This document shows positions 3,023 to 19,808 of a DNA stretch of 64,000 nucleotides, piece by piece. Position numbers and translations under genes: made by a program. The notes under the pieces are model-generated. The model saw only the letters and a program-made list of their open reading frames with translations. It did not search any database and was not told the origin of the DNA. Within the stretch, counting starts at the first letter, position 1; every line of letters starts with the position of its first letter. The stretch covers positions 62,001 to 126,000 of the forward strand of contig NZ_RDQM01000007.1 in the NCBI RefSeq assembly GCF_003703475.1. Reading direction: 5' to 3'. The DNA is from Allofranklinella schreckenbergeri (GTDB lineage: Bacteria > Pseudomonadota > Gammaproteobacteria > Burkholderiales > Burkholderiaceae_C).

Positions 3023-3028
3023 AACCCC

Positions 3029-4387
3029 ATGCACACACGGCAAACGCACACGCCATCGCGCCACTGGTGGCCGCAGCAAGGGCTGATCGGCTGGCTCAAC
3101 CTGGCGCTGACCGCGCCCACCGTCTATCTGTTCATCGGCCTACCGCTGGTGCTGCGCCAGCACGGCTGGAGCGGCACCGAGATCGGCCTGCTGCAACTGG
3201 CCGGCCTGCCCGCCATGCTGAAATTCGCCCTCGCCGCCCCCATCGACCGTTGGCCTTTGCGCTCGGGCCGTGCCGCTGTCCGGGGTGGCGCTGACCGGAG
3301 CGATGCTGACCGGCACGGCGCGCTCAACTACCGCAACTGGGCCCTGGCGCTGGGCCTGGCCTACGCCGCCGCGCTGATGGCGCTGGCGCTGCACCCGCTG
3401 CACAACACCGCGCCCCAAACCCTGTTCGCCCTGCTCATGCTCGCCAGCCTGCTGGGCACCTGGGCCGACGTGCCCAGCAATGCTCTGGCCATCCGCATCC
3501 TGCCCGCATCCGAACACACGCGCGCGGGCGCCATCCGCTCGGCCGCCACTTCGCTGGGCGCCATCGCAGGCGGCGGTCTGATGCTGGTGATGCACGCCCG
3601 GCTGGGCTGGTTCTGGCCCTTTGCCGCATTGGCCGCCGCCGTGCTCGTCGGCATCCTGGCCCTGCTTCTGCTGCCGCTGCACACGAGCGCCACAACGGCA
3701 GCCATCCCGCCACCGCCCCAAGGCGCCGGGCAGCCCCCCGCAGCGGCACACCAAAAAGCTCGGCTGACCGATGTGCCAGCCAATGTACTGGCCTATTTCC
3801 AGCCCAAGCCGCGCCGGGCCTGGGCGCTGCTGCTGCTGTGCTATTTCCCCGCCGTGGGCGCTGGCTGGGTGTATCTCAAGCCCCTGCTGCTCGATCAAGG
3901 CTTTGCCGAAGAACACATTGCCTGGGGTGTTGGCGTGGCCGGCGGCCTGCTCAGCGCCCTGGCCAGCCTGGCCAGCGCACGCCTGACCCACAAGCTGGGC
4001 GTGCGCCGCACCCTGCCACTGTTTGCCGGATTCAACCTGCTGGCCATGGCCGCTCTGGGCACTGCCGTGGCCAGCGGCTTGGGCAAACCGGCCCTGTTGG
4101 CCGCCGCCACTGCGCTGGCCATGGCCATGGGCGCCAGCGCAGCGCTGCTGTTCGGCCTGATGATGCGCCACACCCGCACGCCGCTGCAGGCGCTGGACTA
4201 CGGCATCCAGTCCAGCCTGTTCATCAGCGCCCGCTCGCTGGCGCCGCTGCTGGCCGGCCTACTGCTCGACCGTCTGGGCCACGGCGCCATGCTGGGCGCA
4301 CTGACAGTCTGGCTGGCCCTGGTTTGCGCGCTGAGCTGGCGGCTGCGCGATGCGGTGGCGGCCTCTCCCAGCGCCCAGCAGGATTGA
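3029..4387 (+). CDS. MFS transporter, siderophore-importer-like
   Basis: This 452-residue inner-membrane protein has about 12 hydrophobic segments. Coupling with a TonB-dependent receptor and the general look (AmpG/RhtX/FptX/YbtX-like start, TAPTVYLFIGLPLVLRQHGW) suggest that it carries a metal chelate or its breakdown product across the inner membrane. The loop after the second transmembrane segment (APIDRWPLR, residues about 70-100) is unusually long and charged. A central proline/alanine-rich linker of about 30 residues near 230-255 separates the two six-helix halves. The ATG is 6 bases after the methyltransferase stop. Import rather than export is an inference from context. Confidence 0.72.
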   Translation: MHTRQTHTPSRHWWPQQGLIGWLNLALTAPTVYLFIGLPLVLRQHGWSGTEIGLLQLAGLPAMLKFALAAPIDRWPLRSGRAAVRGGADRSDADRHGALNYRNWALALGLAYAAALMALALHPLHNTAPQTLFALLMLASLLGTWADVPSNALAIRILPASEHTRAGAIRSAATSLGAIAGGGLMLVMHARLGWFWPFAALAAAVLVGILALLLLPLHTSATTAAIPPPPQGAGQPPAAAHQKARLTDVPANVLAYFQPKPRRAWALLLLCYFPAVGAGWVYLKPLLLDQGFAEEHIAWGVGVAGGLLSALASLASARLTHKLGVRRTLPLFAGFNLLAMAALGTAVASGLGKPALLAAATALAMAMGASAALLFGLMMRHTRTPLQALDYGIQSSLFISARSLAPLLAGLLLDRLGHGAMLGALTVWLALVCALSWRLRDAVAASPSAQQD

Positions 4388-4822
4388 GCAGCAGATCAGC
4401 ACAAAGCGTAGGGGAAAAACTCAAACCTATACTGCCGCCTTCAGCCAAGCGCCTGGCGGTCGTGGCCGCGCCGGTGCCAGCCAAATCTTGCCCGCTTGTG
4501 CGCAGCCTCGCCCTACCCGGCGCCAGGCATGTGCACGGCTTTTTTGGATGGAGCCCGCATGCCTGCCGCCAATCCCTCCCGCCCCTTCAAGCAGCTGCTG
4601 CGCCACGTGCAACATGCCCGGCCGCCACCTGATGCACGGCCGCGCTGTGCGCCCCTCGACTGCCCACGTTGCCATACAACGCCATCAGGGGCGCGCCGTC
4701 GGTCGCACTACCCATCCCCGTTTCCCGCCCCGATCACAGCCCCACCTGCCGCCTGATGCGTGCCGAGCACTCCGTGCCCTGCCGCAGGCCGACCAAGGGC
4801 GACCACTCCTCCCCATCACGCC
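4388..4822 (+). other. Gap of about 435 bases without a recognisable gene
   Basis: The stretch between the MFS gene and the second methyltransferase is GC-rich and has open frames in several phases. None of their translations shows a domain, a signal peptide or a good ribosome-binding site. It may hold the promoter of the downstream gene. I see no clear terminator or repeat. Confidence 0.5.
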
Positions 4823-5641
4823 ATGAAACCCATCACCCCCAGCCTGAGCGACGTCCCCGAAACCATGTTATGGACCCTGCACAACCGCGCCAGCGAGGCC
4901 GCGCGGCCCGACGGCTGCATCCGCGACCCCAAGTGCCTGGAGATCTACCGCGCCATCGACTACGACTACGAACGCAGCTTCGGCCGCGCCGAGCCTTCGC
5001 ACGGCGTGCGCTCGCAGTTGTGCGATGCGCGCCTGCGCGAGTTTCTGGCCGAACACCCCGATGGCGTCATCGTCAACCTGGGCGAAGGGCTGGAAACCCA
5101 GCGCTTTCGCATCAACGCGCCGCAGGCGTTGTGGCTGAGCATTGACCTGCCCGAGGCCATCGCCGTGCGCGAACGCTTCATCCAGCCCGACGCACAGCAC
5201 CTGCACATCGCCCGCAGCGCGCTGGACACCGCCTGGTTCAACGCCGTACCGCCCGGGCGGGCCGTGTTCATCTGCGCCCAGGGGCTGTTCATGTATCTGC
5301 GCGAGCAGGACGTGGCTCAGCTCGTCAACGCCATGGCCGCGCGCTTTCCCGACGCCATCCTGATGTTCGATTACCTCAGCCGCGCCCTCTCGCGCCGCAC
5401 CCTGAGCCAGCGCGGCTGGATGAAAACCCGCCACTATCGCACCCCGCCCATGCCCTGGGGCATCGACCGCGACCAGCTCGCCCCCAGCTTCTCGCGCTGG
5501 ATCGGCCAGCCGGTCGAGGTGCACAACGTCACCTTCCTATTCCCGCGCGGCCCGCTGCACTGGCTGATCCCACTGATCGAGAAAACCCCGCTGGGCCACA
5601 AGATGCCGGGGCTGTGCTGGCTGCGGCTGCCGGGTGGCTAG
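4823..5641 (+). CDS. TcmP/leucine-carboxyl-type SAM methyltransferase
   Basis: This 272-residue protein belongs to the class I methyltransferases related to TcmP and leucine carboxyl methyltransferase, which methylate carboxyl or hydroxyl groups of small molecules. The motif VNLGEGLETQRFRI (residues 84-97) is the family's SAM-binding strand and loop, and the following ALWLSIDLPEA carries the conserved acidic residue. An ICAQGLFMYL segment follows the second core strand, as is usual. I chose the ATG at 4823 because the homologous region begins there; an in-frame extension to 4760 is proline-rich and unlike the family. It is the last plus-strand gene before the oppositely transcribed defence operon. 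It may modify the same ligand as the preceding genes. Confidence 0.75.
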   Translation: MKPITPSLSDVPETMLWTLHNRASEAARPDGCIRDPKCLEIYRAIDYDYERSFGRAEPSHGVRSQLCDARLREFLAEHPDGVIVNLGEGLETQRFRINAPQALWLSIDLPEAIAVRERFIQPDAQHLHIARSALDTAWFNAVPPGRAVFICAQGLFMYLREQDVAQLVNAMAARFPDAILMFDYLSRALSRRTLSQRGWMKTRHYRTPPMPWGIDRDQLAPSFSRWIGQPVEVHNVTFLFPRGPLHWLIPLIEKTPLGHKMPGLCWLRLPGG

Positions 5642-5673
5642 CAGCAGCACTCCACGTCACCTTGAAGTGTGTT

Positions 5674-8439
5674 TCAGGCTTTGTGCTCAAATCGTAAAAA
5701 ATCCGCCAGCCGTTTCGACTCCAGCACCTCGTCGTGCGGCGCCAGCACATAGCGCCAGGGCTTTCCGCCCACGCTGGCGCTGTAGTCGCTGGCGTGCTGG
5801 CACCACTGGGCGGCGGCCTGCGCCTTGGCCTGCACTTCGGCGCTGGCGATGTCGCCGCGCGCCTTGGTTTCCACCATCAGGATGCAGTCCTGCATTTCGG
5901 CCACGAAGTCGGGCACGTATTCGGACTGCTCGCTGCCGAGCTTGTAGTAGATCTGGAACTGCCCCTTGGCGGGCTTGAACCACTTGAGCGCATCGCGCTC
6001 CAGGAGGATGGCAAAGCGCCGCTCGGTGTCCGAGTCGAATTTCTGCAAGGGGTACAGGCAGCGCGCAAAGCCGCCAAACAGCAGAGACTTGATGCGGCCA
6101 GGCTCGGCCAATGTCTCGCGGTAGTGGCGCGCGGCCTCGCCTGCGGCCACGGTGTACTGGCAGGCCTTGAGCTGGGTGAAGCCACGGCTGATGCGCACCT
6201 CGAAACCCGCAGCCTCCTCATAGAAATGCGCTTGCATCTGCGCATGGATTTCACGCGCAATCAGACGGCGGTCACGATCCAGCACGTTGATGACGTCGGC
6301 CTCCTCCGTCAGATAGCTGCGCAAGTGCCGTACCATCTGCCCAGCCAGCTCGTACAGCAGCTCGGACTGGGTGAAGTAGTCGATGTCGTCAACGTCCAGC
6401 AGCGCGTGGACGATATAGTCCTCGGCGCGCTGCTCCTTCAGACCGATTTCCGCCGCCAGGCTGAACTGGGCATTGCTGTGCAGCATCTGCCCCACGATCT
6501 CGCGCGTGCCCGGTTGTAGGTGCAGCCCGCTCACATCCAGCGTGAAGGGGTGAAAGCCCGTGCGCACCTCGCCCTTGGGCACCACGGCGATGCGCGGAAT
6601 GTCGATGCTTTGCTGCACCACAGCATCCAATGTCTTGGCGACCACGGCAGACAGGTCCAGCGCAGGCGCGGCCACATCCGCGTCGGCCGGCAAGCCGCTC
6701 AAAAGGCTGCCCTGCATGGGGCGCAGCCGTTCGGCCACCTCGGCGGCGATGGTCTGCTGCACCTCGGGTCGCAGCAGCGCGCTGCGGGTAGGGGCGACAT
6801 CGCGCCGGGTTTCGTACTGGCCGATGACGTCCATCACCGCGCGCGCGGCCTGTTTTTCCGCTTCGCTGGCAAACGCCGGCGCAGGCGGGGCGGGGGTGTT
6901 GCTGCCCGGAACCTGGACGATTTCCGGTGCGCTTTCCAATCCCAGACGCGCATGCACGCCCGCGCTGACCTGCACGCTCACCTTTTTCTCATCCGCCTGC
7001 GGCGCTTCCAGAATGACTTGCTTCAGGCGAATGGGCGAATCGCCCCGGTTGGCCTCGTCCACGATTTCCTGAAACCGCTCGTGCGCGACGATGTTGAGCC
7101 GATCCACCGCCGCCACGCCGGTGCGCTTGCCATAGGGCAGGCGCAGGCCGCGCCCGATGCTTTGCTCGATCAGCGTGCGCGCGTTGGCCGCGCGCAGCGG
7201 CACGATGGTGTAGAGGTTGGTCACGTCCCAGCCTTCTTTGAGCATGTTGACATGAATCACAATCTCGGTCGGCTCATCCACGCTCTCCACGGCCAAGAGG
7301 CGCGCAATCATCTGCTCCTCATCCTTGCCGCTCTTGCTGGAATCAACCTGAATCACCTTGCCCGCATAGCGCCCCTCGTAAAACGCGGGCGACTCCAGCA
7401 AGGCCAGCAAGTCGGCGGCATGCGTGGTGTCGCGCGCAATCACCAGCATGAAGGGCTTGACCGGCTTCACCCCGTTCTCGCGCGCATAGGTCAGCAGCTC
7501 CACCTTCGTGGCTTCGTGCAGGCGCACACCGTCTTCGAGCTTGATTTTTTCCAGCTCCTGCGGCGTGTGCGCGCTGGCATCAAAGCCGCGCTGCGTCACC
7601 ACGGCCGGCTCCTTGACAAAGCCACCTTCCAGCGCCCGCGCCAGTGGGTAATCCATCACCACGTTCTTGAATGCCACCGGCCCGCGGCTGCTCTCCACGA
7701 ATGGTGTAGCCGTCAGCTCCAGGCCGAGCAGCGGCTGCAATTCATTGATCGCCCGCATCCCCGCCTGGGCGCGGTAACGGTGCGATTCGTCCATCAGCAG
7801 CACCAGATCCGGCAGGTTCGCCAGGTGGTTGAAATAGCTCTCGCCCAGCACCTCGCGCATGCGCTTGATGCGCGGCTCCTTGCCGCCGCGCACCTCGGAA
7901 TTGATCTTGCTGATATTGAAGATGTTGATGCGCACGTCCTGCACAAAGCCCATGCCCAGCCCCTGCGGCTGCACCTCCACCGCCGCGCCGCTTTGCTCGT
8001 AGTTATCCCCAGTGATGATGAGGGGCGGCTGCTGCGCAAACTCGGCAATACCCTTGAACACGTACTTGGGCGTGTTGGGTGTGAAGTCGGCAATCAGCTT
8101 GTTGTAAATGGTCAGGTTGGGCGCCAACACGAAAAAATTGCGGATGCCATGCGCCAGATGCAGATAGGCGATAAACGCCCCCATCAGCCGCGTCTTGCCG
8201 ACCCCGGTGGCCAGCGCAAAGCACAGCGAAGGGAAGTCGCGCTCAAAGTCATCCAGCGTTGCAAACTGCGCCTTCAGGCTGCTCAAAATGGCTGCCACAT
8301 CGCGGTCATGGCCTTCGCGCTCATGCGTCAGCATTTCCGGCGCGGCCTCAATGGCCTGGATCAGCTTTGCCAGTGATTCCGCCTGCGGCGCGCGCAGCGA
8401 TAGCCGACCGTTGACATGGTGTTGTACGCGGGTGTTCAT
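5674..8439 (-). CDS. Type III restriction enzyme Res subunit (helicase-nuclease)
   Basis: This 921-residue protein is the restriction subunit of a type III system: with Mod it translocates or slides on DNA using ATP and cuts unmodified DNA. The Walker A motif ATGVGKT is at residues 77-83, and the DEAD-like box appears as MDESHRYR near residue 215. A helicase C-terminal region follows, with VNMLKEGWDV and EQSIGRGLRLP as motifs V and VI. Near the C-terminus, VPDFVAEMQ...VETKA forms a PD-(D/E)xK nuclease core. Length and order match the family. It is the last gene of the defence operon, and its ATG is 3 bases after the rhuM stop. All key residues are present, so it looks intact. Confidence 0.9.
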   Translation of the reverse strand: MNTRVQHHVNGRLSLRAPQAESLAKLIQAIEAAPEMLTHEREGHDRDVAAILSSLKAQFATLDDFERDFPSLCFALATGVGKTRLMGAFIAYLHLAHGIRNFFVLAPNLTIYNKLIADFTPNTPKYVFKGIAEFAQQPPLIITGDNYEQSGAAVEVQPQGLGMGFVQDVRINIFNISKINSEVRGGKEPRIKRMREVLGESYFNHLANLPDLVLLMDESHRYRAQAGMRAINELQPLLGLELTATPFVESSRGPVAFKNVVMDYPLARALEGGFVKEPAVVTQRGFDASAHTPQELEKIKLEDGVRLHEATKVELLTYARENGVKPVKPFMLVIARDTTHAADLLALLESPAFYEGRYAGKVIQVDSSKSGKDEEQMIARLLAVESVDEPTEIVIHVNMLKEGWDVTNLYTIVPLRAANARTLIEQSIGRGLRLPYGKRTGVAAVDRLNIVAHERFQEIVDEANRGDSPIRLKQVILEAPQADEKKVSVQVSAGVHARLGLESAPEIVQVPGSNTPAPPAPAFASEAEKQAARAVMDVIGQYETRRDVAPTRSALLRPEVQQTIAAEVAERLRPMQGSLLSGLPADADVAAPALDLSAVVAKTLDAVVQQSIDIPRIAVVPKGEVRTGFHPFTLDVSGLHLQPGTREIVGQMLHSNAQFSLAAEIGLKEQRAEDYIVHALLDVDDIDYFTQSELLYELAGQMVRHLRSYLTEEADVINVLDRDRRLIAREIHAQMQAHFYEEAAGFEVRISRGFTQLKACQYTVAAGEAARHYRETLAEPGRIKSLLFGGFARCLYPLQKFDSDTERRFAILLERDALKWFKPAKGQFQIYYKLGSEQSEYVPDFVAEMQDCILMVETKARGDIASAEVQAKAQAAAQWCQHASDYSASVGGKPWRYVLAPHDEVLESKRLADFLRFEHKA

Positions 8440-8442
8440 GGT

Positions 8443-9480
8443 TTATTCCCCCTCGCCCGCGCTTAGCTGCTTGAGCATCCGGTCAAAATCGCTTTCAAAA
8501 AGCCTGTCTTGCACGATGCGGTATTTTTCAAACTCGGTTTCCGCATGCAGCTTGGCCTGTTCATGCGAAATTTTTCCAGGCCCGGTCAACAACTCATTTC
8601 CATTGAACTCCAGAAAACCATCCAGGCGCTTGGCCCAATCCTGCATGGACATGGGGATCTTCCGTATCGCTTGCAACTCTGCAAAATCAAGATAGATGGA
8701 AACAATTCGCTCCAGATAATCCATTTCTTGCGGGCTAAGGTAATTCTTGGCTACCGATACATCCGATTTGACAATCTTCCCGTGCGGCGCAGCTTCCCAA
8801 TGCGTCAGCCCCATGTGTGCCTTGTCTGCATCGGCACGAGCCGCAATCAACTCTGCTGCCGTGTGACGATGCACAGCCCAGTGCAGCTTGTTTTGCACCA
8901 GCGCAAAAAATGTTCGCGTGGTCTGAGCGTCCTTGTCGTAATCAAAAGCAGTTGCGTATAAGTCCGTAATTTTTTGATAAAACTTTCGCTCCGACAGGCG
9001 AATTTCACGAATATATTCCAGCTGACGGTCGAAATACTCATCCGTGAACATGTGCCCATGCTTTAGGCGCTCCACATCCATCACCCAGCCCTGGATGGTG
9101 TAGTCCTTCACGATGCCCCCAGCCCATTTGCGGAACTGCACCGCACGCGCATTGTTGACCTTAAAGCCCACCGCAATGATGGCTTGAAGGTTGTAATGCT
9201 TGGCACGGTAGTTCTTCCCGTCGCTGGCAGTTATTAAGTAATCCTGGATAACTGCCCCAGGCATTAACTCCCCATCGTCAAATATTCGTTTTAAATGCTG
9301 ATTGATCGCAGACACCGTCACATCGTAAAGCGCTGCCATCATCTTCTGCGTCAGCCAGATGTTTTCATTTTCATAGCGCATCTCAACCGATTGAGGCTGA
9401 TCACCCGTGGCCGCGACATAAGTCAGATACTCTGCCGCCGAGGACCGGACGATGGAAACTTCCTGCTTCTTCTTCGTCAT
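8443..9480 (-). CDS. RhuM family protein
   Basis: This 345-residue protein matches the RhuM (virulence RhuM/Fic-DOC-associated) family, which often sits inside restriction-modification loci and whose biochemical role is not established. An N-terminal helix-turn-helix-like stretch (TQKMMAALYDVTVSAINQH, about residues 41-60) precedes the signature AKHYNLQAIIAVGFKVNN. I chose the ATG at 9480 because it overlaps the mod stop in a TGATG arrangement, which suggests translational coupling; an upstream extension is just the mod gene in another frame. Base composition is lower in GC than the res gene. It sits between mod and res, which in a classical type III operon are adjacent. Confidence 0.85.
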   Translation of the reverse strand: MTKKKQEVSIVRSSAAEYLTYVAATGDQPQSVEMRYENENIWLTQKMMAALYDVTVSAINQHLKRIFDDGELMPGAVIQDYLITASDGKNYRAKHYNLQAIIAVGFKVNNARAVQFRKWAGGIVKDYTIQGWVMDVERLKHGHMFTDEYFDRQLEYIREIRLSERKFYQKITDLYATAFDYDKDAQTTRTFFALVQNKLHWAVHRHTAAELIAARADADKAHMGLTHWEAAPHGKIVKSDVSVAKNYLSPQEMDYLERIVSIYLDFAELQAIRKIPMSMQDWAKRLDGFLEFNGNELLTGPGKISHEQAKLHAETEFEKYRIVQDRLFESDFDRMLKQLSAGEGE

Positions 9481-11192
9481 CAGGCATCCTCTTCGTCGCC
9501 GCCAAACATGTCTGCCGTTGCCGTGTCGGCAGCTTTTCGCCCTTTCCCTTTGGCAGCAGGCGGGCTTGAAGGCGCTTGCGCATCCGGCTTGGCCAACGGC
9601 AAATTCGCCACGTTCAGGCTGTAATCGTCCTGCCCCCACTCGCAGCGGGCCAAAATCATCTTGGGGATTTTCTTCAGCGTCAGATTCGGCCAGCGCTCAA
9701 GCGCCTGCTGCGCCGTCACGCCACGAAAGGCCGAGCAGCAAATCAGCAAACTGCGGCCATCGCCCACCTCATCGGCCAGCGCCTGCAACTGCGCGGCAGA
9801 CAAACTTTGCGTGGTCACGAAAATAAAATCCTGCTCGCTGGAATGCCCATGCTGCCACCACAGCGTTTCCGAAGGCGCATAGGTAAAACCCTCCAGCTTT
9901 GCCAGCGCCTCGGCCAGCATGGCCGCGTTGTATGCCGGGTTGATGATCGGATTGCCCCAGCGGTCATTCACGATCAGGCTCGGCGCCAGCCGGTAATAGC
10001 GAAAGCCCCCGCCGCCCTGCCAGTTCACCGCCTTGGAAATACCGCCCTGGTCTTCCCCATCAATGACTTTTTTCAGGCGCGGAATGATGTGCGTATGGCA
10101 ATGCTCGCCCAGCTCCACCATGATCCAGCGGCGGCCCATTTTGTGCGCGACAGCACCCGTGGTGCCGGAACCGGCGAAGGAGTCGAGGACGAGATCACCG
10201 GGGTTGGTGGCTATATGCAATATAAGCCCCACTAACTCCTCCGGCTTTGGTGTTGCAAATGGCTCAATATCAGGTAGCAACTTCCTCAAATGGTCACGTT
10301 TAGCCGACTGATTTGAGCCTGCCTCTTCAGCAGGCCACCAAGTTCTGGGAACAACCCCGTCCTTCACATCCGCAAGATATCTTTTTATCAACGGCATTCC
10401 ATCACCATTTGCGCCAAAGTAGACTCTTCCTTCTGCTCTAGCTTTTTCAAAATTTTCCTTTGAAAACCTCCAATAGTTACCTTTTGGTGGCGTTACAACT
10501 CGCCCAGATGGCAACGTGATTGGGTAAAGAAGTGAATCGCCTCCACTTTTTGCGGTTCCATTATCACCTTGAAGCCAAACTCCGCGCGGGTCATTATCTG
10601 GATTGCGGTAACGAGATTTTTGAGCATCGCTTCTTGGTAAAGGGTTGCGTACCCTTTTCCAAGACTCCCTATTTTTTGCGAAGAGAAGCACGTGATCGTG
10701 CGCGCTAGAGATATCAGTATCGTTTCTTCTCCCCTTATCCTTTTCCCATGCAAATGAGGATACAAAATTCGATCGCCCAAAAATCTCATCACACAGCACT
10801 TTCAAATAGTGTGCCTCGTTGTCATCAATCGTGATCCACAACGAACCATCATCTGAAAGCAAACGCCTGATGATCTCCAGCCGGTCGCGCATCAGCCCCA
10901 GCCAAATCGAATGCTCCAGCCCGTCGTCGTAATGGGTAAACGCACTGCCCGTGTTGTACGGCGGGTCAATGAACACGCATTTCACCTTGCCCGCAAACTC
11001 CGCCTCCAGCGCCTTCAAGGCCAGCAGGTTATCCCCAAAAATCAGCCGGTTATCAAAAACATCCACCTCCGACACCCGCCGCCCAGCGTGATACGACCGC
11101 TCCCCATTCTCCAGCAAAATCCGCGCCTCCAGCTTCGGCCGCTTGTCTTTGCCAATCCAGGTGAGTTCGAGTTTTTGGTTTTTGCTATTCAT
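9480..11192 (-). CDS. Type III DNA adenine methyltransferase Mod
   Basis: This 570-residue beta-class N6-adenine methyltransferase marks self DNA and provides sequence recognition for the Res subunit. The catalytic motif IV DPPYNTG is at residues 76-82 and the SAM-binding motif I FAGSGTTG at about 338-346, the order expected for type III Mod. The segment between them (about residues 115-325, bases 10225-10850) should contain the target-recognition domain, and it is strikingly AT-richer than both flanks. I take the ATG at 11192, preceded by an AGGAA ribosome-binding site; a TTG one codon upstream is also possible. It follows the D12 methyltransferase by 13 bases and overlaps rhuM. Confidence 0.92.
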   Translation of the reverse strand: MNSKNQKLELTWIGKDKRPKLEARILLENGERSYHAGRRVSEVDVFDNRLIFGDNLLALKALEAEFAGKVKCVFIDPPYNTGSAFTHYDDGLEHSIWLGLMRDRLEIIRRLLSDDGSLWITIDDNEAHYLKVLCDEIFGRSNFVSSFAWEKDKGRRNDTDISSAHDHVLLFAKNRESWKRVRNPLPRSDAQKSRYRNPDNDPRGVWLQGDNGTAKSGGDSLLYPITLPSGRVVTPPKGNYWRFSKENFEKARAEGRVYFGANGDGMPLIKRYLADVKDGVVPRTWWPAEEAGSNQSAKRDHLRKLLPDIEPFATPKPEELVGLILHIATNPGDLVLDSFAGSGTTGAVAHKMGRRWIMVELGEHCHTHIIPRLKKVIDGEDQGGISKAVNWQGGGGFRYYRLAPSLIVNDRWGNPIINPAYNAAMLAEALAKLEGFTYAPSETLWWQHGHSSEQDFIFVTTQSLSAAQLQALADEVGDGRSLLICCSAFRGVTAQQALERWPNLTLKKIPKMILARCEWGQDDYSLNVANLPLAKPDAQAPSSPPAAKGKGRKAADTATADMFGGDEEDA

Positions 11193-11205
11193 CAAAATTT
11201 CCTGC

Positions 11206-12093
11206 TCAGCTCACAGCCTTTGCTTGCGGGATCCCTTCCTCCGGGATTTCAATGTTTTGACTGAAGAACATCACCTCATTCCCTACGTATCGTTTTTGTG
11301 CAGTGTAGTTCAGACCATAACTCAATGACTGACTCATCTGATACATGGCGCAAATTTCCCCAGTATTGTCATAGGACACAACCCATGGCCATTTAAAGCT
11401 TTTTTGCTGTAGTTTTTTTGCTATGGCAGCATGATCATCGTGTTCATAGTAGTTACGATACAGCCCTTTACCCTTCACGTAGTAGGGTGGGTCGAGATAG
11501 ATGAGCGATTTCTTCGGCAAGAAATCCGAGCATCGATTCAGAAGATTCAGGGAGTCTTCACAGTAAACGGAAATACTGGAGGAGTAATTTGCAATTGCTT
11601 GTATGCGTGCGGCCACGACATCCTTTTTGAAGCGCGCATCCAGCTTGTAATCACCATTTTGCTTCTGACCTCCAATGACTCCCGCCTTGAGAATTCCGGA
11701 ACGATTCGTTCGGTTCATGAACAGTGTTGCAAACCCCTTTTCAACCATGCTCGCCTTGGCTTCTCCGCGTAAAACAGATCGCCACCTAAACCATTCCTCA
11801 ATGGTAATGGGCGTAGAGTCGAGTAAGCGCAACAATTCACGGGAATGCTTGGTTACAGAAATCCAGAAGGCATACACCGCTGGATCAGCATCATTGATAT
11901 GAATATGACTGGCGTGGCCATGGAGCAATAGCTCCAACGCTACTCCAGCACCACCAGCGTACGGCTCCAAGTAGTGCCCTCCCAAGAGCCCATTCTTCCG
12001 CATCACATCTGCAATAAAAGTGGCAAATGGTCCCTTGCCGCCAGGGTAGCGCAGCGGGCTATATAGTTTATTCGAATACACAATTAACCTCAC
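11206..12093 (-). CDS. D12-class (Dam-like) N6-adenine DNA methyltransferase
   Basis: This 295-residue protein is an alpha-class adenine methyltransferase of the MethyltransfD12/Dam family. The N-terminal SPLRYPGGKG (residues 12-21) and EPYAGGAG (43-50) form the SAM pocket, and DPPYY at 201-205 is the catalytic motif. The start is GTG and overlaps the stop of the preceding ATPase gene by four bases (GTGA), so the two are translationally coupled. Composition is much lower in GC than the chromosome. Having a second, unrelated methyltransferase in the same operon as Mod is unusual. The coupling suggests that it protects the cell from the ATPase/Toprim protein upstream; that role is inferred. Confidence 0.88.
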   Translation of the reverse strand: MRLIVYSNKLYSPLRYPGGKGPFATFIADVMRKNGLLGGHYLEPYAGGAGVALELLLHGHASHIHINDADPAVYAFWISVTKHSRELLRLLDSTPITIEEWFRWRSVLRGEAKASMVEKGFATLFMNRTNRSGILKAGVIGGQKQNGDYKLDARFKKDVVAARIQAIANYSSSISVYCEDSLNLLNRCSDFLPKKSLIYLDPPYYVKGKGLYRNYYEHDDHAAIAKKLQQKSFKWPWVVSYDNTGEICAMYQMSQSLSYGLNYTAQKRYVGNEVMFFSQNIEIPEEGIPQAKAVS

Positions 12094-13772
12094 TTTGGCT
12101 TTGTTTTTAATACAGCCAGCTTGCTGGCATCAACAGCATAGCCGCTACTCATTACGCCGCGAAGAGCCAGTTCGAAGCATTCTAAAAATTTATTGCAGGC
12201 ATCTCGATTATTTTCGATCCAGTGCCTCCACGGGTTGCGCGACTTTGATGGCAAGGCAACAAGTTTTTGAAACTCGGAATCCTTGTAGAATCGCTTGAAG
12301 ACTTCTCGTGGCTTCTTGTTGCCTTGATAATTTTTTAGGTTTTCTTTTACATCAACCCGATCTCCATTGATGGAAAATTCACGGATGACCTCTGCCGCTG
12401 ATTGGGTAAAATTTGGGCGAGCATACCCCAAATCATTTCCCCAAAAATCATTATCAGCAGGGAGGTTGTATAGATACTCGAAGATCAACTGATCAGGAGG
12501 CAATTTTCCCGGAAGAATAACCACGGTCTTCGGGTTCTTCTTGCCAACCTGATGAGCAGCATCCGAATCCAAGCATATGATGCTTCTCTCTGAGAACTCC
12601 GGTACGCCATGCTTGATTAACTGCAGGTAGTTTGAACAGCCCAAAGTCACCTCTGGCAGTGAATTTGTAAATCTCTTGATGGACTGCCGGTTCATCAGGG
12701 CAGCATAGAAGTCCGCTGCCTCCTTGTCTTCGAAGTAAACATTGACCTTGGGAAGCTTTTCGCCTGTCCCCACTGCAACAGTCTGGGTGTTGATGTCTGC
12801 ACTGATCCGTGGCCAAGACCAGTCCTTCATCACCTGCACATCACCAAACGTGTTGCTTAAATAGACAGTTTTATATTTACGTTGGTATAACTGACTTTGT
12901 TGGTAGGCATACTCAATCAGTGTAGGCGAATGAGAGGTCATCACGACCTGAAGATTAAGTTCTCTGCACTCCCTTTCCAAAATTTTCAACAGGTTTACTT
13001 GTGCTGTTGGAAAAAGCCCGGCATCTGCTTCGTCTATAAGCAGCAGGCCACCTTTGTAGTCAGTATATTCTTCCTTCAGCTTGCGAAACGACATCAACGC
13101 CAAGATGATTTGCCCTGCATTGTCTTCACCAGCAGAAACAGAATCTTGATCATAGTTTTCGCCATGCGCCACCGCTGAACTAATAGTTCCTCCTGTCCCT
13201 GTGGCCAGAGAGGATTGGCGATTTAATAGTTCATTAGTTAGCCCAATGAATTCTTCCTTGTGCTCCTCCAAATAATCGAAATTATTAATTTCATATTTCC
13301 TGTCTGCAATGGGGTAAAGTCGCTTTAAGCTAAGGAAAATAACTGGATGAGTGAAGTTGCGACTTGTGTTTTCTCCCTTTTTGACTGTACTGTTATTGCG
13401 AACTACCGGTCTTGGTGACGCGCCTCGCTTCATTAGCTCAAGTTTTGCGGTTGCATCCTGATTGGTGTGGCCGTCATGTAATTCTATGTTAACAATCATT
13501 GATCCGGGCTGGTCGAATTCTTTTGAAATTCTGAAATGCTCGCTGTATTGAGACTTAAACGAGCTTCCAGCAATTTGCTGATAATTGATCTCCTTGTCTT
13601 TGGTGTAATCTTTCTCGAAGCTAAAAATTTGCGCTGCGATGCCGAGAATGGATGATTTTGATGTTCCATTCTTTCCGCAAATGACTGTAATGTGATCGCC
13701 GAATTCAATTTCCACATTATTTAATGCGCGAAACTTTTCAATTGTCAACTTTTTTATCTGAGTTTTTGACAT
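12090..13772 (-). CDS. OLD-like AAA ATPase with C-terminal Toprim-type nuclease region
   Basis: This 560-residue protein combines an SMC/ABC-type ATPase with a Toprim-like domain, as in the OLD, GajA and AriA/B group of anti-phage effectors. Walker A (GKNGTSKSS) is at residues 33-41, a signature-like SAGED near 213, Walker B (LLLIDEADAG) at 244-252 and the switch histidine in TSHSPTL near 279. The C-terminal part has NVYFEDKEAADFY (acidic residue near 348) and CLDSDAA (402-404), which fit the Toprim glutamate and DxD. I chose the ATG at 13772 because it has an AGGGGAA ribosome-binding site and lies 11 bases after the helicase stop; an ATG at 13799 overlaps that gene. Composition is AT-rich. 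It overlaps the D12 methyltransferase gene. Confidence 0.8.
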   Translation of the reverse strand: MSKTQIKKLTIEKFRALNNVEIEFGDHITVICGKNGTSKSSILGIAAQIFSFEKDYTKDKEINYQQIAGSSFKSQYSEHFRISKEFDQPGSMIVNIELHDGHTNQDATAKLELMKRGASPRPVVRNNSTVKKGENTSRNFTHPVIFLSLKRLYPIADRKYEINNFDYLEEHKEEFIGLTNELLNRQSSLATGTGGTISSAVAHGENYDQDSVSAGEDNAGQIILALMSFRKLKEEYTDYKGGLLLIDEADAGLFPTAQVNLLKILERECRELNLQVVMTSHSPTLIEYAYQQSQLYQRKYKTVYLSNTFGDVQVMKDWSWPRISADINTQTVAVGTGEKLPKVNVYFEDKEAADFYAALMNRQSIKRFTNSLPEVTLGCSNYLQLIKHGVPEFSERSIICLDSDAAHQVGKKNPKTVVILPGKLPPDQLIFEYLYNLPADNDFWGNDLGYARPNFTQSAAEVIREFSINGDRVDVKENLKNYQGNKKPREVFKRFYKDSEFQKLVALPSKSRNPWRHWIENNRDACNKFLECFELALRGVMSSGYAVDASKLAVLKTKPK

Positions 13773-13783
13773 TGCTCTTCCCC

Positions 13784-16681
13784 TTATATCAATATCCACT
13801 CAATCAAGAACAATTCCTGCTCTTCCACCCGCTGCTGCAACTGCCCCTCCAGCCCCTCGATCAGTTGGTTGCGCTGCGCCTCGATCGCATCCTGCCGTTC
13901 AAACAGTTCACGGCGCTGTTTGCTGCGCTGGGCTTCCAGTTGGCGTTGCTGTTTTTGCCAGTGCAGTTTGTCTTCCAGGGTGGCGGCATGGGTGGCGCTG
14001 CGGCGTACTTCCTTGATTTGGCGGTCGGTTTCCTTGATGGCTTCTTCCAGGCCGAGTTTGAGGTCGTCGGCCCAGTCGTCGAGTTTTTGCACTTCCTGCT
14101 CGAAGTGGCCGAGGTTGCGTTGCTGGATGCCCGTCAGCAGGGCTTGGCGGCGGGTGTGTAGTGCGTCCAGCAGGGGCGGTGTGGCGCTGGGGGCGGGGAT
14201 GCTGGCTGCGGTGGCGGGCAGGCGCAGGAGTTTTTCCGCATCCTCGGGGTGCAGGGCTTGGCCGCTGGCGGTGGCGGCGGCCAGCAGGCAGTGTTCTTCG
14301 GTGTGGCCCAGGGCGTGCACGCGCAGCAGTTTGAGGGCGAGTTGGCCGCTTTGGCCGCGGTAGGGCTCCAGGGTGCTGATTTTGTTGCCGTAGGCGGCGT
14401 AGTCGAACGTTAGCCGCGCGGGCGGGTTGGCGCGCTGGCGGGCTTGTTGCAACAGGTGTTCGGCCAGGGGGTGGCCGGTGCGGTAGAGGTGGGCGTGGCC
14501 GTTCTTGCGGGGCAGTTCGTAGCGGCCGGGCTCCACGCCGTGCAGGCCGGGCGGCAGGCTGTGCAGGGTGAAGCCGTGTTCGTCAAAGTGGGCGTGCGGG
14601 CCCAGCTCGCTTTGGGTGAGGGCGAGCAGCATGTGTTCGAACTGGTTGCGGGTGTTGCGGCTGTCGTCGTGGCGCAGGCGCAGTTTTTGCTGCACTTCTT
14701 CGTCAAAGTTTTCCAGCAGGGTTTGCCGAGTTTGCATCATGGCCTGGTTGATTTCGCCGGAGAGCTCTTCTTGCAGGCTGGCAAAGCCGGCCTGGATTTC
14801 TTGCGGGCTGCGGCAGGTGCGGTAGATGTCGGCAATGCGGCGCTCCAGATCCACACCGCTGCCGATGGCGCCCAGCACTTCGTCGCTGGCGCCGAAGACG
14901 CCCTCAAAGAGCTGGAATTTCTCGGCCAGCAGTTGGTAGACGCGGGCGTCGGCTTCGTTGCTGCGGTCGACGAAGTTGACGACGACGACGTCGTGCTTCT
15001 GCCCGTAGCGGTGGCAGCGGCCAATGCGCTGTTCGACGCGCTGGGGGTTCCAGGGCAGGTCGTAGTTGATGACGAGGGAGCAGAACTGGAGGTTGATGCC
15101 TTCGGCACCAGCCTCGGTGGCGATCATGAGGGTGCCGCGTTCTTTGAAGTGCTCCACCAGCGCGGCGCGGGTGTCGGCGGTTTTGGAGCCGGTGATGCGG
15201 TCTGTGCCCGCGTGGCGCTTTAGCCAGTCTTTGTAAATAGCTTGTGCTTGCGCGTCGCTGTTGCTGCCATTGAAGAGCACGATGCCCTGGCCGCTTTCAC
15301 CGGCGTAAGAGGTGTCGGCCAACAGGGTTTGCAGGTAGTCCTGGGTGCGTTTGGATTCGGTGAAGATGATGGCTTTTTGCGCCGCGCCCAGGCGTTCGAG
15401 CTCTTCAAAGGCTTTGCCCAGCGCGGTGAGCAGGGCCTGGCCTTTGGCATCCTGGCGGATGCGGGTGGCCAGTTGCTGGAAGTGTTCCAGCTCTTCGATT
15501 TCGGCCTGGATGGCCTGGTATTCGTTGGGCTGGCTGGGCGGGGCAGGGGCGCTTTGGCCGTTTTCAGTGCCCGGCTCGTCGCTCCATTCGTCGGCGGTTT
15601 CGTCCAGGCTTTCGTAGTCTTGGTCCAGGGTTTCGAGCAGATCGCAGCCGGGGGCGGTTTCGGCCAGCACGGTGCGCAGGCGCTGCGCCATGGTGCCCAA
15701 GGCTCCGGCAATGGCGTGGCTGCTGGAGGCCAGCAGTTTCCACAGCACTAGCGAGATCAGTTGCCGCTGCCCTTCGGGCAGGGCCTTGAGGCTGGGGCGG
15801 CGCAGGTAGTCGGCCACCTGGCTGGAAAGCGCCTGCTCGTCTGCCGAGGGGGTGAATTCCTGCACGATGGCCTTGCGCCGGGTGTAGGACACGTAAGGCT
15901 GCACCTGGCGGCGCAAGGTGCGCTGGCAGACGGGGGCCAGGCGCTGGCGCAGCTTGTGCAGGCTTTGCTCGGTGGCCTTGGCGCCAAACTGGGTGCGAAA
16001 GCTCTCCAGGTCGCCAAACACGCGCTCGTCGATCAGGCTGACCAGGCCGTACAGCTCCAGCAGGGTGTTTTGCAGCGGCGTGGCGGTGAGCAGCACCTTG
16101 GCAGGCACGTGCGCCAGCGCATCTTTGAGCGTTCTGGCGATGACGTTGCCTTTTTTGTAGACGTTGCGCAGGCGGTGGGCTTCGTCCAGCACCACCAGGT
16201 CCCAGGCCAGGCGCTTGAGGTCGTCGGCCTTGGCCTTGGCAAACTGGTAGGAGCAGATGATGGGGCCGCCCGCGTGTTCAAACGGGTTGCCGCGGCCTTG
16301 CTTGCGCAGCTCCCTGTAGCTCTTGGCTTCCAGAATGAGGCTTTGCAGGCCGAACTTGTCTTGCAGCTCCTGATGCCACTGTTTGCGCAGGTTGGCGGGC
16401 ACGATGATGAGCATCCGGCGCTTGCGCTCGGCCCAGCGTTGCAGGATGACCAGGCCGGCCTCGATGGTTTTGCCCAGGCCCACTTCGTCGGCCAGGATCA
16501 CGCCCTTGGAGAGCGGGTTGCGGCAGGCAAACAAGGCGGCATCGACCTGGTGCGGGTTCAAATCCACTTGCGCATCCACCAGGCTGCTGGCCAGCGCAGC
16601 CACGCTGCCGCTCTCGGCCTGGCGGGTGAGTTGCCAAGCGAGGTATTGGGATTGGTGGGGGGGCAGAAAGCGCTGCATCAT
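13784..16681 (-). CDS. SNF2-family DEAH helicase/ATPase
   Basis: This 965-residue protein is an SNF2/HepA-type superfamily 2 DNA translocase. The first RecA-like domain has ADEVGLGKT at residues 64-72 and DEAH at 166-169 with LTATPLQN after it. The second has AIIFTESKRTQDYL, ATEAGAEGINLQ and the motif VI EQRIGRCHRYGQ. The C-terminal 100 residues are rich in Q, E, K and R and should form a coiled coil. It is the promoter-proximal gene of the six-gene defence operon. GC content is close to the host, unlike the two genes that follow. A helicase, a methylase and an ATPase together recall the Hma-type systems of defence catalogues, but membership is not shown here. Confidence 0.9.
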   Translation of the reverse strand: MMQRFLPPHQSQYLAWQLTRQAESGSVAALASSLVDAQVDLNPHQVDAALFACRNPLSKGVILADEVGLGKTIEAGLVILQRWAERKRRMLIIVPANLRKQWHQELQDKFGLQSLILEAKSYRELRKQGRGNPFEHAGGPIICSYQFAKAKADDLKRLAWDLVVLDEAHRLRNVYKKGNVIARTLKDALAHVPAKVLLTATPLQNTLLELYGLVSLIDERVFGDLESFRTQFGAKATEQSLHKLRQRLAPVCQRTLRRQVQPYVSYTRRKAIVQEFTPSADEQALSSQVADYLRRPSLKALPEGQRQLISLVLWKLLASSSHAIAGALGTMAQRLRTVLAETAPGCDLLETLDQDYESLDETADEWSDEPGTENGQSAPAPPSQPNEYQAIQAEIEELEHFQQLATRIRQDAKGQALLTALGKAFEELERLGAAQKAIIFTESKRTQDYLQTLLADTSYAGESGQGIVLFNGSNSDAQAQAIYKDWLKRHAGTDRITGSKTADTRAALVEHFKERGTLMIATEAGAEGINLQFCSLVINYDLPWNPQRVEQRIGRCHRYGQKHDVVVVNFVDRSNEADARVYQLLAEKFQLFEGVFGASDEVLGAIGSGVDLERRIADIYRTCRSPQEIQAGFASLQEELSGEINQAMMQTRQTLLENFDEEVQQKLRLRHDDSRNTRNQFEHMLLALTQSELGPHAHFDEHGFTLHSLPPGLHGVEPGRYELPRKNGHAHLYRTGHPLAEHLLQQARQRANPPARLTFDYAAYGNKISTLEPYRGQSGQLALKLLRVHALGHTEEHCLLAAATASGQALHPEDAEKLLRLPATAASIPAPSATPPLLDALHTRRQALLTGIQQRNLGHFEQEVQKLDDWADDLKLGLEEAIKETDRQIKEVRRSATHAATLEDKLHWQKQQRQLEAQRSKQRRELFERQDAIEAQRNQLIEGLEGQLQQRVEEQELFLIEWILI

Positions 16682-17068
16682 CCGTTTTCCTTAATGCGCC
16701 GTAATACCTACAGCCTTGTCATTCATGCTGCTGATCTGTCAATGTTCGGCTATCGTTTGACTTTTGGATTGATTGTTTTCGTTGAGGGGAGGGAGATTGC
16801 AGCACATTTCACGGCCTTTCCATCAACTTTGCAGGCAACTGATGCGGTAGGCCATTGTTACTTAAGAGCCTATTGAGGCCTGAGTCCCAATGGGCAAAAA
16901 ATGGCTTGGGATGCGATGCAAAACACCACCTGCACCTACCATGCAGTCTTGGCTCAAAGCAGAGCGAGGGTTTTCTGGCGCTGCAGCCCCCAATCCGTTT
17001 TCTTGTCGGCCATACAAAAACTTTCAACAGACTGACAGCGTTGGCGCCACTCATGCCTTTCTTTTCCC
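16682..17068. other. Divergent intergenic region upstream of the defence operon
   Basis: These 387 bases separate the SNF2 gene (minus strand) from the GIY-YIG gene (plus strand) and should contain both promoters. Composition is lower in GC than the surroundings, especially at 16690-16800. Short open frames on both strands show no recognisable domain. I see no transposase remnant or integration-site repeat, although this is where an island boundary would be expected. Confidence 0.5.
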
Positions 17069-17710
17069 ATGCCCCAGATCGTCTATGTCCTGACCAATGA
17101 AGCCATGCCCGGCATCGTCAAGATCGGCATGACCGAAGCCGATTCGGTGGAATCGCGCCTGGCCCAGCTCAATGCGCACAGCGGCGTGCCGCTGCCGTTC
17201 GAGTGTTACTTCGCCGCGGAGGTGGAGGCCTGCCGCCGGATCGAGAGCATCCTGCACCAGTTGTTTTCCGAGCAGCGCATCAATCCGCGCCGCGAGTTCT
17301 TTCGTGTTGATCCGGAAAAGGTAGTGCTGGCAATCAGCATTGGCAAGTTCACGGAGGTCACGCCCGGACAGATCGCAGCCGATGCCGAGGATCGGCAGGC
17401 GCTGGAGAAGGAAAAGGCGCGCCGCCCGCGTATCCGCCTGGCCGCGCTCGGCATCCATCAGGGGGCGGTACTGCATTTCTCGCGCGATGAGGCCATCACC
17501 GCCACGGTGCAGCAGGACAACCGGGTGAGCTATCAGGGGCAGGAAATGAGCCTGTCGGCGGCGGCGCTGGCCGCGCTGCACCGGCTGGGCTATCGCACGC
17601 CTACGGCCAGTGGTTCGGAACATTGGCTGTTCGAGGGGGAGTTGCTCGACGAGCGCCGCCGCCGCATGGAAGCCGAGCAGTTCGACGCCAACGCGCCGGG
17701 CGCGAGCTGA
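17069..17710 (+). CDS. GIY-YIG nuclease-family protein with RAMA/DUF4357-like C-terminus
   Basis: This 213-residue protein starts with a GIY-YIG-type domain of the T5orf172/MUG113 kind: IVYVLTNEAMPGIVKIGMTE (residues 4-23), a conserved arginine in SRLAQLN and a glutamate in the helix after ECYFAAEVEA. A charged linker near residues 105-120 leads to a second domain with GAVLHFSRD and MSLSAAALAALHRLGY followed by HWLFEGELL, which resembles the RAMA/DUF4357 fold found with restriction genes. It would act on DNA or help recognise modified DNA; the biological role is unknown. It is divergent from the defence operon and may belong to it functionally. Confidence 0.75.
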   Translation: MPQIVYVLTNEAMPGIVKIGMTEADSVESRLAQLNAHSGVPLPFECYFAAEVEACRRIESILHQLFSEQRINPRREFFRVDPEKVVLAISIGKFTEVTPGQIAADAEDRQALEKEKARRPRIRLAALGIHQGAVLHFSRDEAITATVQQDNRVSYQGQEMSLSAAALAALHRLGYRTPTASGSEHWLFEGELLDERRRRMEAEQFDANAPGAS

Positions 17711-17847
17711 TCGCAGCTTTGCCGCCCATCCCTCCCCGCCCGGCCCAGCAGTGGGGCGGGGCGGCAGTCAAGCCCCTGCTTTCCATGCGCCAGCGCGCTG
17801 CAATTCGGTAGTACCCTCAGCGCCTTTGCATCCACCTGATCGATACC

Positions 17848-18663
17848 GTGACACCCCCTCGCCGTTCTTTGTTTTCCTACCTCCGCGCGGCTGTGGCCTC
17901 CTGGCTGCATTTGCTGCTCATGGGCATGACGCTGGTGCCTTTCGCCCTGGTTTTGCTGGTTGCGGCTTTGTTTGTGCGCGGCGAGCCGATTTACCGCATT
18001 GGCGTGGCGTGGCTGAACTGGTGCGTCAGCAGCGCCCGCTGGCTGCTGGGCATCCGCTACCGGGTGCAGGGGATGGAGCATTTGCCTGCCTTTGCGCGCG
18101 CGCCGCAAGGGGGCGAATCTGAAAGCCCGCCCCCAGGCGTGGTGCTGCTGGTCAAGCACCAATCGACGTATGAGACTTTTCTGATGCCGCTGGTGCTGCG
18201 CCATGTGGTGCTGTCCTACGTCTTCAAGAAAGAGCTGCTCTCCATCCCCTTTTTCGGCTGGGGCATTGGCCGCATGGACATGGTGCACATCGATCGCGCC
18301 ACCGGAGCCAAGGCGTTCCACAAGGTGCTCGAGCAAGGCCGCCGCCTGATGGAGATGGGCAACTGGATCATCATGTTCCCCGAAGGCACGCGCGTGCCGC
18401 GCGGCGAAACGGGCACCTACAAAGCCAGCGGGGCGCGCCTGGCCGTCGATACGCAGGCCACGGTGGTGCCCGTCGCCGTGGCCTCGGCGCGTTGCTGGGG
18501 GCCGCGCGCCATCGTCAAATACCCCGGCGTGGTGGACGTTTCCATCGGCCCGCCCATCTCCACCGAAGGCAAAACAGCCAGCGAGCTGCTGGCGCAAGTG
18601 CAGGCGTGGATCGAGGCCGAAATGCGCCGCATCGATCCGCAAGCCTATCCGGAAAATACTTAA
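17848..18663 (+). CDS. plsC: 1-acyl-sn-glycerol-3-phosphate acyltransferase
   Basis: This 271-residue inner-membrane enzyme adds the second acyl chain to lysophosphatidic acid, giving phosphatidic acid for phospholipid synthesis. An N-terminal hydrophobic segment (residues 15-42) anchors it. The catalytic HX4D motif reads HQSTYE (104-109), with glutamate in place of aspartate, a variant I associate with betaproteobacterial PlsC. The phosphate-binding motif FPEGTR is at 177-182. I use the GTG at 17848, since no better ATG precedes the membrane segment. One of the AT-rich palindromes starts almost at its stop codon. Confidence 0.88.
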   Translation: MTPPRRSLFSYLRAAVASWLHLLLMGMTLVPFALVLLVAALFVRGEPIYRIGVAWLNWCVSSARWLLGIRYRVQGMEHLPAFARAPQGGESESPPPGVVLLVKHQSTYETFLMPLVLRHVVLSYVFKKELLSIPFFGWGIGRMDMVHIDRATGAKAFHKVLEQGRRLMEMGNWIIMFPEGTRVPRGETGTYKASGARLAVDTQATVVPVAVASARCWGPRAIVKYPGVVDVSIGPPISTEGKTASELLAQVQAWIEAEMRRIDPQAYPENT

Positions 18664-18664
18664 A

Positions 18665-18742
18665 ATTACATTTCAAAAGAAAAATAATATGCCTATTTCG
18701 GCATGATGTACATAAAATTCAATTCACATTGATTTACAAATT
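18665..18742. repeat. AT-rich palindromic intergenic element, copy 1
   Basis: The copy begins 2 bases after the plsC stop. The left arm is ATTTCAAAAGAAAAATAAT, the right arm ends CATTGATTTACAAAT, and the core has TTTCGGCATGATG. It lies between two same-strand genes and is far poorer in GC than its neighbours. Confidence 0.8.
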
Positions 18743-18761
18743 TATCCAAACGCCATCTTGA

Positions 18762-19604: not shown

Positions 19605-19673
19605 GCAGCAGGGTAGGCAGCCAGGACAGCCCGTGTGTATTGGCAGGAGGCGGGCGCACACCCTCACCCCCAG

Positions 19674-19697
19674 CCCTCTCCCGCAAGCGGGAGAGGG
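19674..19697. repeat. REP-like perfect inverted repeat
   Basis: An 11-base arm CCCTCTCCCGC pairs with GCGGGAGAGGG across a 2-base loop, within the frequently seen CCTCACCCCCAGCCCTCTCC context. It looks like the common GC-rich dispersed intergenic repeat of proteobacteria. It lies between the metallopeptidase gene and hpnC and could also act as a weak terminator. Confidence 0.6.
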
Positions 19698-19808
19698 AGT
19701 GCGCGGCGCTCTCCCTTCGGGCATACCCCAAAACGCACTCCCATCCCATGCCCATTGCCCCCGCCATTTGCCCCATATCCCCGGTTGGATTCGGTTCTAA
19801 TACGCCTC

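Follow-up and report, generated by a model that had tools for sequence, protein, structure and literature searches.

An SNF2-Mod-Res operon of Allofranklinella schreckenbergeri as a likely type III-like carrier of exchangeable defence cartridges

Embedding and stacking of defence genes in defence operons is already known. A 2024 preprint by Payne et al. ('guilt by embedding') is cited for defences lodged in restriction-modification (R-M), BREX and helicase-methylase-ATPase (Hma) operons, TgvAB and DarTG2 have been described within type I R-M systems (PMC11411939 and PMC12255303, respectively), and RhuM was noted in 2013 in R-M loci alongside PrrC-like proteins (PMC3710099). Type III R-M systems such as EcoP15I (Mod2Res) combine a type III Mod, encoded first, with a ResIII helicase-nuclease. 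Both subunits are encoded in a six-gene operon on the minus strand (16681–5674) of a 64,000-nucleotide stretch of Allofranklinella schreckenbergeri DNA (assembly GCF_003703475.1, contig NZ_RDQM01000007.1, positions 62,001–126,000), hereafter the window, in whose coordinates positions are given. This operon differs from plain type III R-M by a DrmD/RapA-like SNF2 helicase as its first gene and by cargo between the subunits. It is likely to be a three-gene SNF2-Mod-Res type III-like core that carries exchangeable defence cartridges in two slots, and comparison across genomes makes the core-plus-cartridge architecture itself very probable. The genes, in order of transcription, are as follows (lengths in amino acids, aa):

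13784..16681, minus strand: SNF2/RapA/DrmD-like helicase, 965 aa, first gene of the carrier core (Pfam SNF2-rel_dom 2e-35, Helicase_C 2.7e-21; PADLOC DrmD 655 bits)
12090..13772, minus strand: OLD-like ATPase-Toprim protein, 560 aa, cargo in slot 1 (Pfam AAA_15 3.6e-20)
11206..12093, minus strand: D12-class adenine methylase, 295 aa, partner of the ATPase in slot 1 (Pfam MethyltransfD12 5.9e-15; PADLOC PD-Lambda-5_B 381 bits over residues 9–287)
9480..11192, minus strand: type III Mod, 570 aa, core (Pfam N6_N4_Mtase 2.2e-47; PADLOC MTase_III 721 bits)
8443..9480, minus strand: RhuM family protein, 345 aa from ATG 9480, cargo in slot 2 (Virulence_RhuM 1.7e-104; PADLOC PDC-S05 490 bits)
5674..8439, minus strand: type III Res helicase-nuclease, 921 aa, core (Pfam ResIII 1.9e-22; PADLOC REase_III 677 bits)

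The original prediction, made from the DNA letters alone, had named these six genes in this order and with these families, and the open frames, Pfam and PADLOC agree. The PADLOC scores of Mod, Res, SNF2, RhuM and D12 exclude chance gene calls, and a chance cluster was rejected because the arrangement recurs in other genomes. The predicted spacings of 11 bases (SNF2-ATPase), 13 (D12-Mod) and 3 (RhuM-Res) stand, but the value of −4 for ATPase-D12 holds only if D12 starts at GTG 12093; a start 12 bases later (gap of ~8) is equally likely, as most homologues align from residue 5. Mod and RhuM overlap by 1 base, a junction for which no value had been given. The tight, co-directional packing and the family scans bear out a single operon with more than plain type III R-M, and its two predicted methylation genes encode different adenine-type methylases (D12 and Mod). 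Mod is an N6/N4 methylase of the type III family, with 6k0w Mod and EcoP15I Mod among its solved relatives. Res is a ResIII helicase that matches EcoP15I Res weakly (1e-5), and inspection of its translation by eye alone found a PD-x(n)-ExK-like nuclease motif near the C terminus. For the SNF2 family profile, RapA was the best match among solved structures, and no solved-structure relative was found for RhuM.

The core recurs in other genomes. We searched the SNF2 protein in 369 genomes of the class and kept 22 loci at E ≤ 1e-100, the window's own included; regions were fetched for 20 of the 21 others, and gene order was read by blastp against the six window proteins. Mod lies downstream on the same contig in 17 of the 22 loci, with Res as well in 13 of those 17; four of the remainder reach a contig end before Mod, and one is degraded, with fragments of SNF2 and Res and no Mod. 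Among plasmids, 752 records match SNF2 and 45 cover at least 80% of the query. Ten of the 752, taken from the best matches with one per kind of organism, were examined, and all ten have the order SNF2-Mod-Res, although SNF2 and Res are in pieces in the Escherichia locus. The other hosts are Deinococcus, a planctomycete, Hymenobacter, Rhizobium, Roseomonas, Cupriavidus, Salmonella, Klebsiella and Aeromonas, so that the plasmid loci span Deinococcota, Planctomycetota, Bacteroidota and Pseudomonadota. Three Mod-Res lineages accompany the SNF2 family, namely the window type, a type with a RE_endonuc-bearing Res (loci L010 and L077) and a type with a Mod of ~1100 residues; Mod and Res types agree in 24 of 24 loci in which both were typed, with no mixing. 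A quick tree of 32 SNF2 proteins shows 3 changes of Mod type (28 typed rows), compared to 6–11 (mean 10.1) in 300 shuffles, a pattern that we read as co-inheritance of the core and no more. In seven plasmid loci (L009, L010, L011, L012, L122, L124 and L126) a helix-turn-helix gene of 66–81 aa is annotated just upstream of SNF2 and is a candidate operon regulator; none was recognised in the window, where 16682–17068 was not scanned for families.

The cargo, in contrast to this stable carrier, changes from locus to locus. Slot 1 lies between SNF2 and Mod and slot 2 between Mod and Res, and a slot was counted as filled when it held a same-strand frame of at least 120 aa. Slot 1 is filled in 21 of 28 loci and slot 2 in 10 of 24. 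Three of the loci counted came via the ATPase and are hence biased to be filled, and the counts are slightly low, since the picking of open reading frames missed a RefSeq AIPR gene in L008 and a DUF262 gene in L010 (GC-rich loci). Contents were assigned by Pfam and PADLOC, some by cluster membership; the contigs of L078 and L079 end before Mod, so that their placement in slot 1 is presumed.

Slot 1, L075 and, by cluster, L076 and L079: IetA with a subtilase (IetAS)
Slot 1 of L077 and slot 2 of L122: GmrSD type IV restriction
Slot 1, L072 and, by cluster, L085: HEC-01A ATPase
Slot 1, L070: LmuB/SMC-like ATPase
Slot 1, L071: AAA_13 ATPase, presumably of the PrrC type
L074 and, by RefSeq, L008: AIPR
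L086: two Schlafen/AlbA proteins
L078 (slot 1 presumed): Fic
L081: HipA
L083: KilA-N
L082: DUF3696-type ATPase
L020: AriA-like ATPase
L018: DUF2130 and Bro-N
L122: HerA
Slot 2, L073: zeta-toxin-like kinase
Slot 2, L084: NsnA-NsnB
Slot 2, window, L018, L020, L077 and L083: RhuM

Embedding of modules of such kinds has been reported for type I R-M and Hma operons (PMC11411939, PMC12255303), and three cartridge families are shared by PADLOC name with the reported embedded defences: HEC-01A, HEC-06-like GmrSD and PDC-S05 RhuM. As in those R-M, BREX and Hma operons, modules are lodged here between the genes of a modification-dependent operon; however, a two-slot SNF2-Mod-Res operon is the carrier, and the window's cartridge is a pair of an OLD-like protein and a methylase. 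Among 20 cargo proteins scanned, two have no Pfam match (359 aa in L073 and 284 aa in L084). Exchange is visible between close relatives: the SNF2 proteins of L013, L070 and L071 are 69–71% identical to that of the window (blastp) and fall within one supported clade of six, whereas their cargos are ATPase-D12, the LmuB-like ATPase and the AAA_13 ATPase, respectively. Cargo changes 23 times on the SNF2 tree (31 labelled rows, 22 states), which is near the minimum for that many states and was not used as a test.

Two further observations concern cargo. In L018 (14201–16212), a YhcG nuclease gene follows the full-length Mod and is itself followed by a second fragment like the Mod C terminus, possibly the footprint of a cargo insertion with duplication. 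An NsnA-like, an NsnB-like and a ~320-aa protein of the same clusters occupy slot 2 in L084 (8323–4732) and lie upstream of SNF2 in L009 (4644–7893).

The cartridge in slot 1 of the window is an autonomous pair. A search of a species-genome collection with the ATPase gave 35 loci, 21 of them with a strong match (L013–L033). D12 adjoins the ATPase in 25 of 28 loci tested, a count that includes three phage loci and two fetched through D12, and in which L007 and L029 seem to be duplicates of one sequence; the three others are two contig ends (L024, L033) and a 25% homologue (L034). Operon context was present in seven of the 21 strong loci. All six genes stand in order, with extra genes inserted, in L018 and L020, and a shorter run is present in five: L013 and L015, both cut by contig ends; L016, with a decayed SNF2 remnant, ATPase, D12 and the start of Mod at the contig end; L033, in which a contig end cuts the run from SNF2 at the start of the ATPase; and L017, which has the genes from the ATPase to Res but no SNF2. 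The retrieved flanks of the other 14 gave no match to Mod or Res. Among those of the 14 in which one neighbour was scanned, the free pair directly adjoins a phosphoketolase (L014), S-adenosylmethionine synthetase (L021), a class I tRNA synthetase (L023 and, by cluster, L026), a DctQM-like transporter (L027), RlaP (L028) or an integrase (L031). Temperate phages carry the pair as well: it follows an excisionase and a DUF3596 gene in Citrobacter phage phiNP, lies beside the integrase in Streptococcus phage Javan645 and has its methylase inverted in Vibrio phage ValB1MD-2. Among 60 relatives, a strong ATPase match was found in the window's own genome only, with weak matches in four others. About 1.6 kb past the free pair of L032, at 14207–20970, lie four genes, one with SbcC-type Walker motifs, whose sizes are reminiscent of Wadjet.

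Two described groups come closest to the pair. PD-lambda-5 (Vassallo et al. 2022; PMC9519451), which is also phage-borne, has as its second gene a D12 methylase of the same PD-Lambda-5_B family; the first gene of the window pair, however, encodes the OLD-like ATPase-Toprim protein instead of PD-Lambda-5_A. The OLD, Gabija, PARIS and retron effectors share with the window protein an ABC ATPase and C-terminal Toprim-type acidic residues, the features of the OLD nuclease superfamily. A review sorts this superfamily into four classes, in which the OLD protein acts alone, with a UvrD-type helicase, with a retron reverse transcriptase, or as an AriA/AriB split (PMC10568477). With D12 beside it in 25 of 28 loci, the window ATPase fits none of these: an adenine methylase takes the place of the UvrD-type helicase, reverse transcriptase or separate AriB. 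The words 'methylase' and 'methyltransferase' occur 0 times in that review.

Conservation and structure prediction agree with the OLD assignment. Across 22 of 22 aligned sequences, the Walker A residues G33-K34-N35-G36..K39, the Walker B residues D247-E248 and the acidic residues E348, D402 and D404 are invariant. A model predicted from 22 sequences (predicted local distance difference test 87.7, predicted template modelling score 0.71) has GajA (E 8e-12) and Thermus OLD (E 1e-11) as its best Foldseek matches, both with probability 1.0, and sequence searches place PtuA, OLD and AriA among its relatives. PADLOC matches are weak and spread over ATPase-Toprim-type models (best 67.5 bits; ATPase-Toprim_I-B 65 bits). 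We name the C-terminal part Toprim because of the invariant acidic residues, these PADLOC models and the OLD match.

The methylase, for its part, appears with more than one partner. Six of 17 other D12 loci were examined: the two nearest D12 proteins follow a 29–31% homologue of the ATPase, and the four more distant ones follow a PD-Lambda-5_A protein (295–414 bits). The ATPase family showed no profile match and no significant BLAST match to these four proteins (best E 0.085), and PD-Lambda-5_A is not among the best 25 PADLOC matches of the ATPase. The PD-Lambda-5_A model PDLC04017 found no match in eight genomes, where its control likewise had none. Thus, one methylase family seems to work with two kinds of partner that are apparently unrelated, which is what one would expect if the methylase supplied the self-marking and its partner acted as effector. 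The ATPase-D12 pair is probably a small R-M-like module whose nuclease is of the OLD type. The PD-Lambda-5_A proteins of L143–L146 have no Pfam match and share an EGNRR motif, which we take to resemble ParB-like domains.

Composition also sets SNF2 and Res apart from the cargo in the window. GC content at third codon positions (GC3) is 0.82 in both SNF2 and Res, compared to 0.81–0.85 in four chromosomal genes of the window, and is 0.47 in the ATPase, 0.52 in D12, 0.60 in RhuM and 0.61 in Mod. Within Mod, the central part (10892–10293) is AT-rich, with GC3 dipping to 0.35–0.48 between GC-richer ends, and this dip fits a replaced target recognition region. The contrast between core and cargo is clear in L013, L071 and L072 as well, and in L020 it is seen for the ATPase and the AriA-like gene and not for D12. 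The operon lies in a segment that is missing from another genome of the genus:

4585..17711: segment of ~13.1 kb absent from one same-genus genome, junctions approximate (1726–4584 and 17712–20675 align to adjoining parts of stretch L127)
4564..4584: left copy of an imperfect direct repeat of 21–22 bases at the junction
17720..17741: right copy of the junction repeat
4760..5641, plus strand: LCM/TIGR00027-type S-adenosylmethionine-dependent methyltransferase inside the segment
17069..17710, plus strand: T5orf172/MUG113 protein, divergent neighbour inside the segment

The junction repeat is present as a single copy in the other genome. Both flanking genes were found in three of nine same-genus genomes, on different contigs in two and ~1.2 kb apart in one (G005). 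The simplest reading is that the segment was inserted in the window's lineage, and no integrase is present among the eight genes identified in it (the six operon genes, LCM and T5orf172). A second stretch of ~3.5 kb (20676–24177, with an Lcl_C/DUF4214 protein at 21440–22852) is also absent from L127.

Several observations weigh against reading the operon as an SNF2-Mod-Res core with cartridges. L018, L075, L076, L077 and L086 show little or no contrast in composition. The missing segment rests on one genome, G005, which is 80% complete, and a deletion in G005 may account for it instead. D12 homologues (E ≤ 1e-50) occur in 18 of the 369 class genomes and the ATPase in the window's own only, so D12 serves other partners too. 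Foldseek template modelling scores to OLD proteins are low (0.30–0.32), and the domain arrangement therefore differs or is poorly set. The link between SNF2 and Mod covers homologues at E ≤ 1e-100 or the best plasmid matches only, and L021 holds an SNF2 homologue, 38% identical in part, with no Mod alongside. Finally, a reverse search with Res matched 22 loci (23 rows, as one gene is broken in two) in 21 of the 369 genomes: SNF2 is on the contig in 11, it is absent from the 9–13 kb upstream in four (L113, L115, L117 and L119), and the contig is too short in seven. L119 has a subtilase gene directly before Mod, i.e., cargo without SNF2. Thus, SNF2 accompanies Mod-Res, whereas Mod-Res does not need SNF2.

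These last loci favour a different reading, in which SNF2 is one more cartridge that comes first by chance, Mod-Res by itself forms the core, and helicase and R-M have no functional link. We consider this improbable. No intact SNF2 with long downstream sequence lacks Mod among the 22 class and 10 plasmid loci; SNF2 precedes Mod in each locus, the Mod type is co-inherited with it, and the pairing holds over three Mod-Res lineages and four phyla. The original prediction had raised helicase, ATPase and D12 as a possible group beside Mod-Res. This partition is not supported, as SNF2 goes with Mod-Res (17 of 22 class loci, 10 of 10 plasmids) and ATPase-D12 is a separate, movable pair. A trio of SNF2, ATPase and D12 was likewise rejected, since many other cargos accompany SNF2 and the pair is also found where SNF2 is absent.

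A single six-protein machine with two methylation marks is a far weaker candidate, and we regard it as very improbable. It would account for the tight transcription unit with overlapping genes and for the recurrence of all six genes in order, with extra genes, in L018 and L020. However, ATPase-D12 is found outside the operon, both in chromosomes and on phages, RhuM is present in only 5 of 24 SNF2 operons with five changes on the SNF2 tree, and cargo differs among the close SNF2 relatives. The six-gene order was found in two of the 21 strong ATPase loci, with a shorter run in five. Of the two options left standing at the outset, two stacked systems or one larger machine, stacking gains support, and the turnover of genes outside the core speaks against the larger machine.

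An Hma system fused to type III R-M, also raised in the original prediction, is scarcely credible: SNF2 does match HmaA weakly (187 bits), but it matches DrmD better (655 bits), the methylase is of the D12 adenine type with no HmaB among its 13 PADLOC families, whereas HmaB is described as an m5C methylase (PMC8565338), and the pair occurs without SNF2. The best 25 of the 118 PADLOC families matching the ATPase do not include HmaC. DISARM and BREX-related systems share the SNF2 helicase family and were rejected as well. For DISARM, SNF2 scores below the NCBIfam DrmD cut-offs (664 bits for DrmD_b vs. 950, and 285 vs. 610) and matches a DrmA model at 135 bits, far below DrmD, and no DrmA, DrmB or DrmC is present among the eight genes identified in the segment. 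For BREX-related systems, the Pfam scan of the six genes found no DUF499, the ATPase described as their defining feature (PMC12839542). The methylase here is a type III Mod.

Returning to the SNF2-Mod-Res carrier, gene content, the division of core from cargo, the autonomy of the pair, the exchange of methylase partners and the presence or absence of the segment come from genome comparison, and the biochemistry proposed here is drawn from protein families. Mod would mark a single asymmetric site in host DNA, leaving DNA without this mark to be cut by the Mod-Res complex. By analogy with RapA, SNF2 may be an ATP-driven translocase on the same DNA, probably aiding Mod-Res in scanning or clearing bound proteins; whether SNF2 helps Mod-Res in a working complex is evenly balanced. 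D12 would mark a second motif independently, and the ATPase-Toprim nuclease would then spare the host and attack DNA or replication states without the mark; for this gating of an OLD-type nuclease by D12 methylation, the chances are about equal either way. With two marks and two nucleases on one transcript, phages that evade or inhibit the first layer would still meet a second. RhuM would most likely either act in regulation or serve as a suicide effector set off by failure of the R-M layer, which is the weakest step of this scheme. The fullest version is offered tentatively, at somewhat less than even confidence: SNF2-Mod-Res may be a widespread two-slot carrier that pairs a methylation-gated core with a fast-exchanged second-line effector, and ATPase-D12 may be a fifth OLD class, whose own adenine methylase shields host DNA and in which the PD-lambda-5-type methylase was kept and the effector swapped.

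Both the SNF2-Mod-Res carrier and the OLD-methylase pair look like new variants. Our searches of open-licence papers found none that describes either, and the 2024 preprint on embedded defences may already list type III carriers. The comparison tells a stable carrier apart from changing cargo, and genes filling the same slots elsewhere are therefore candidate defence genes, including those without a Pfam match in L073 and L084. For the OLD family, how Gabija discriminates self from non-self is called unknown in a study that proposes another answer (PMC12407980). The methylation-gated reading of the OLD-type nuclease is directly testable with two genes in Escherichia coli and, if true, the OLD-methylase pair would be a case in which an OLD-family nuclease relies on a methylation mark to distinguish self from non-self.

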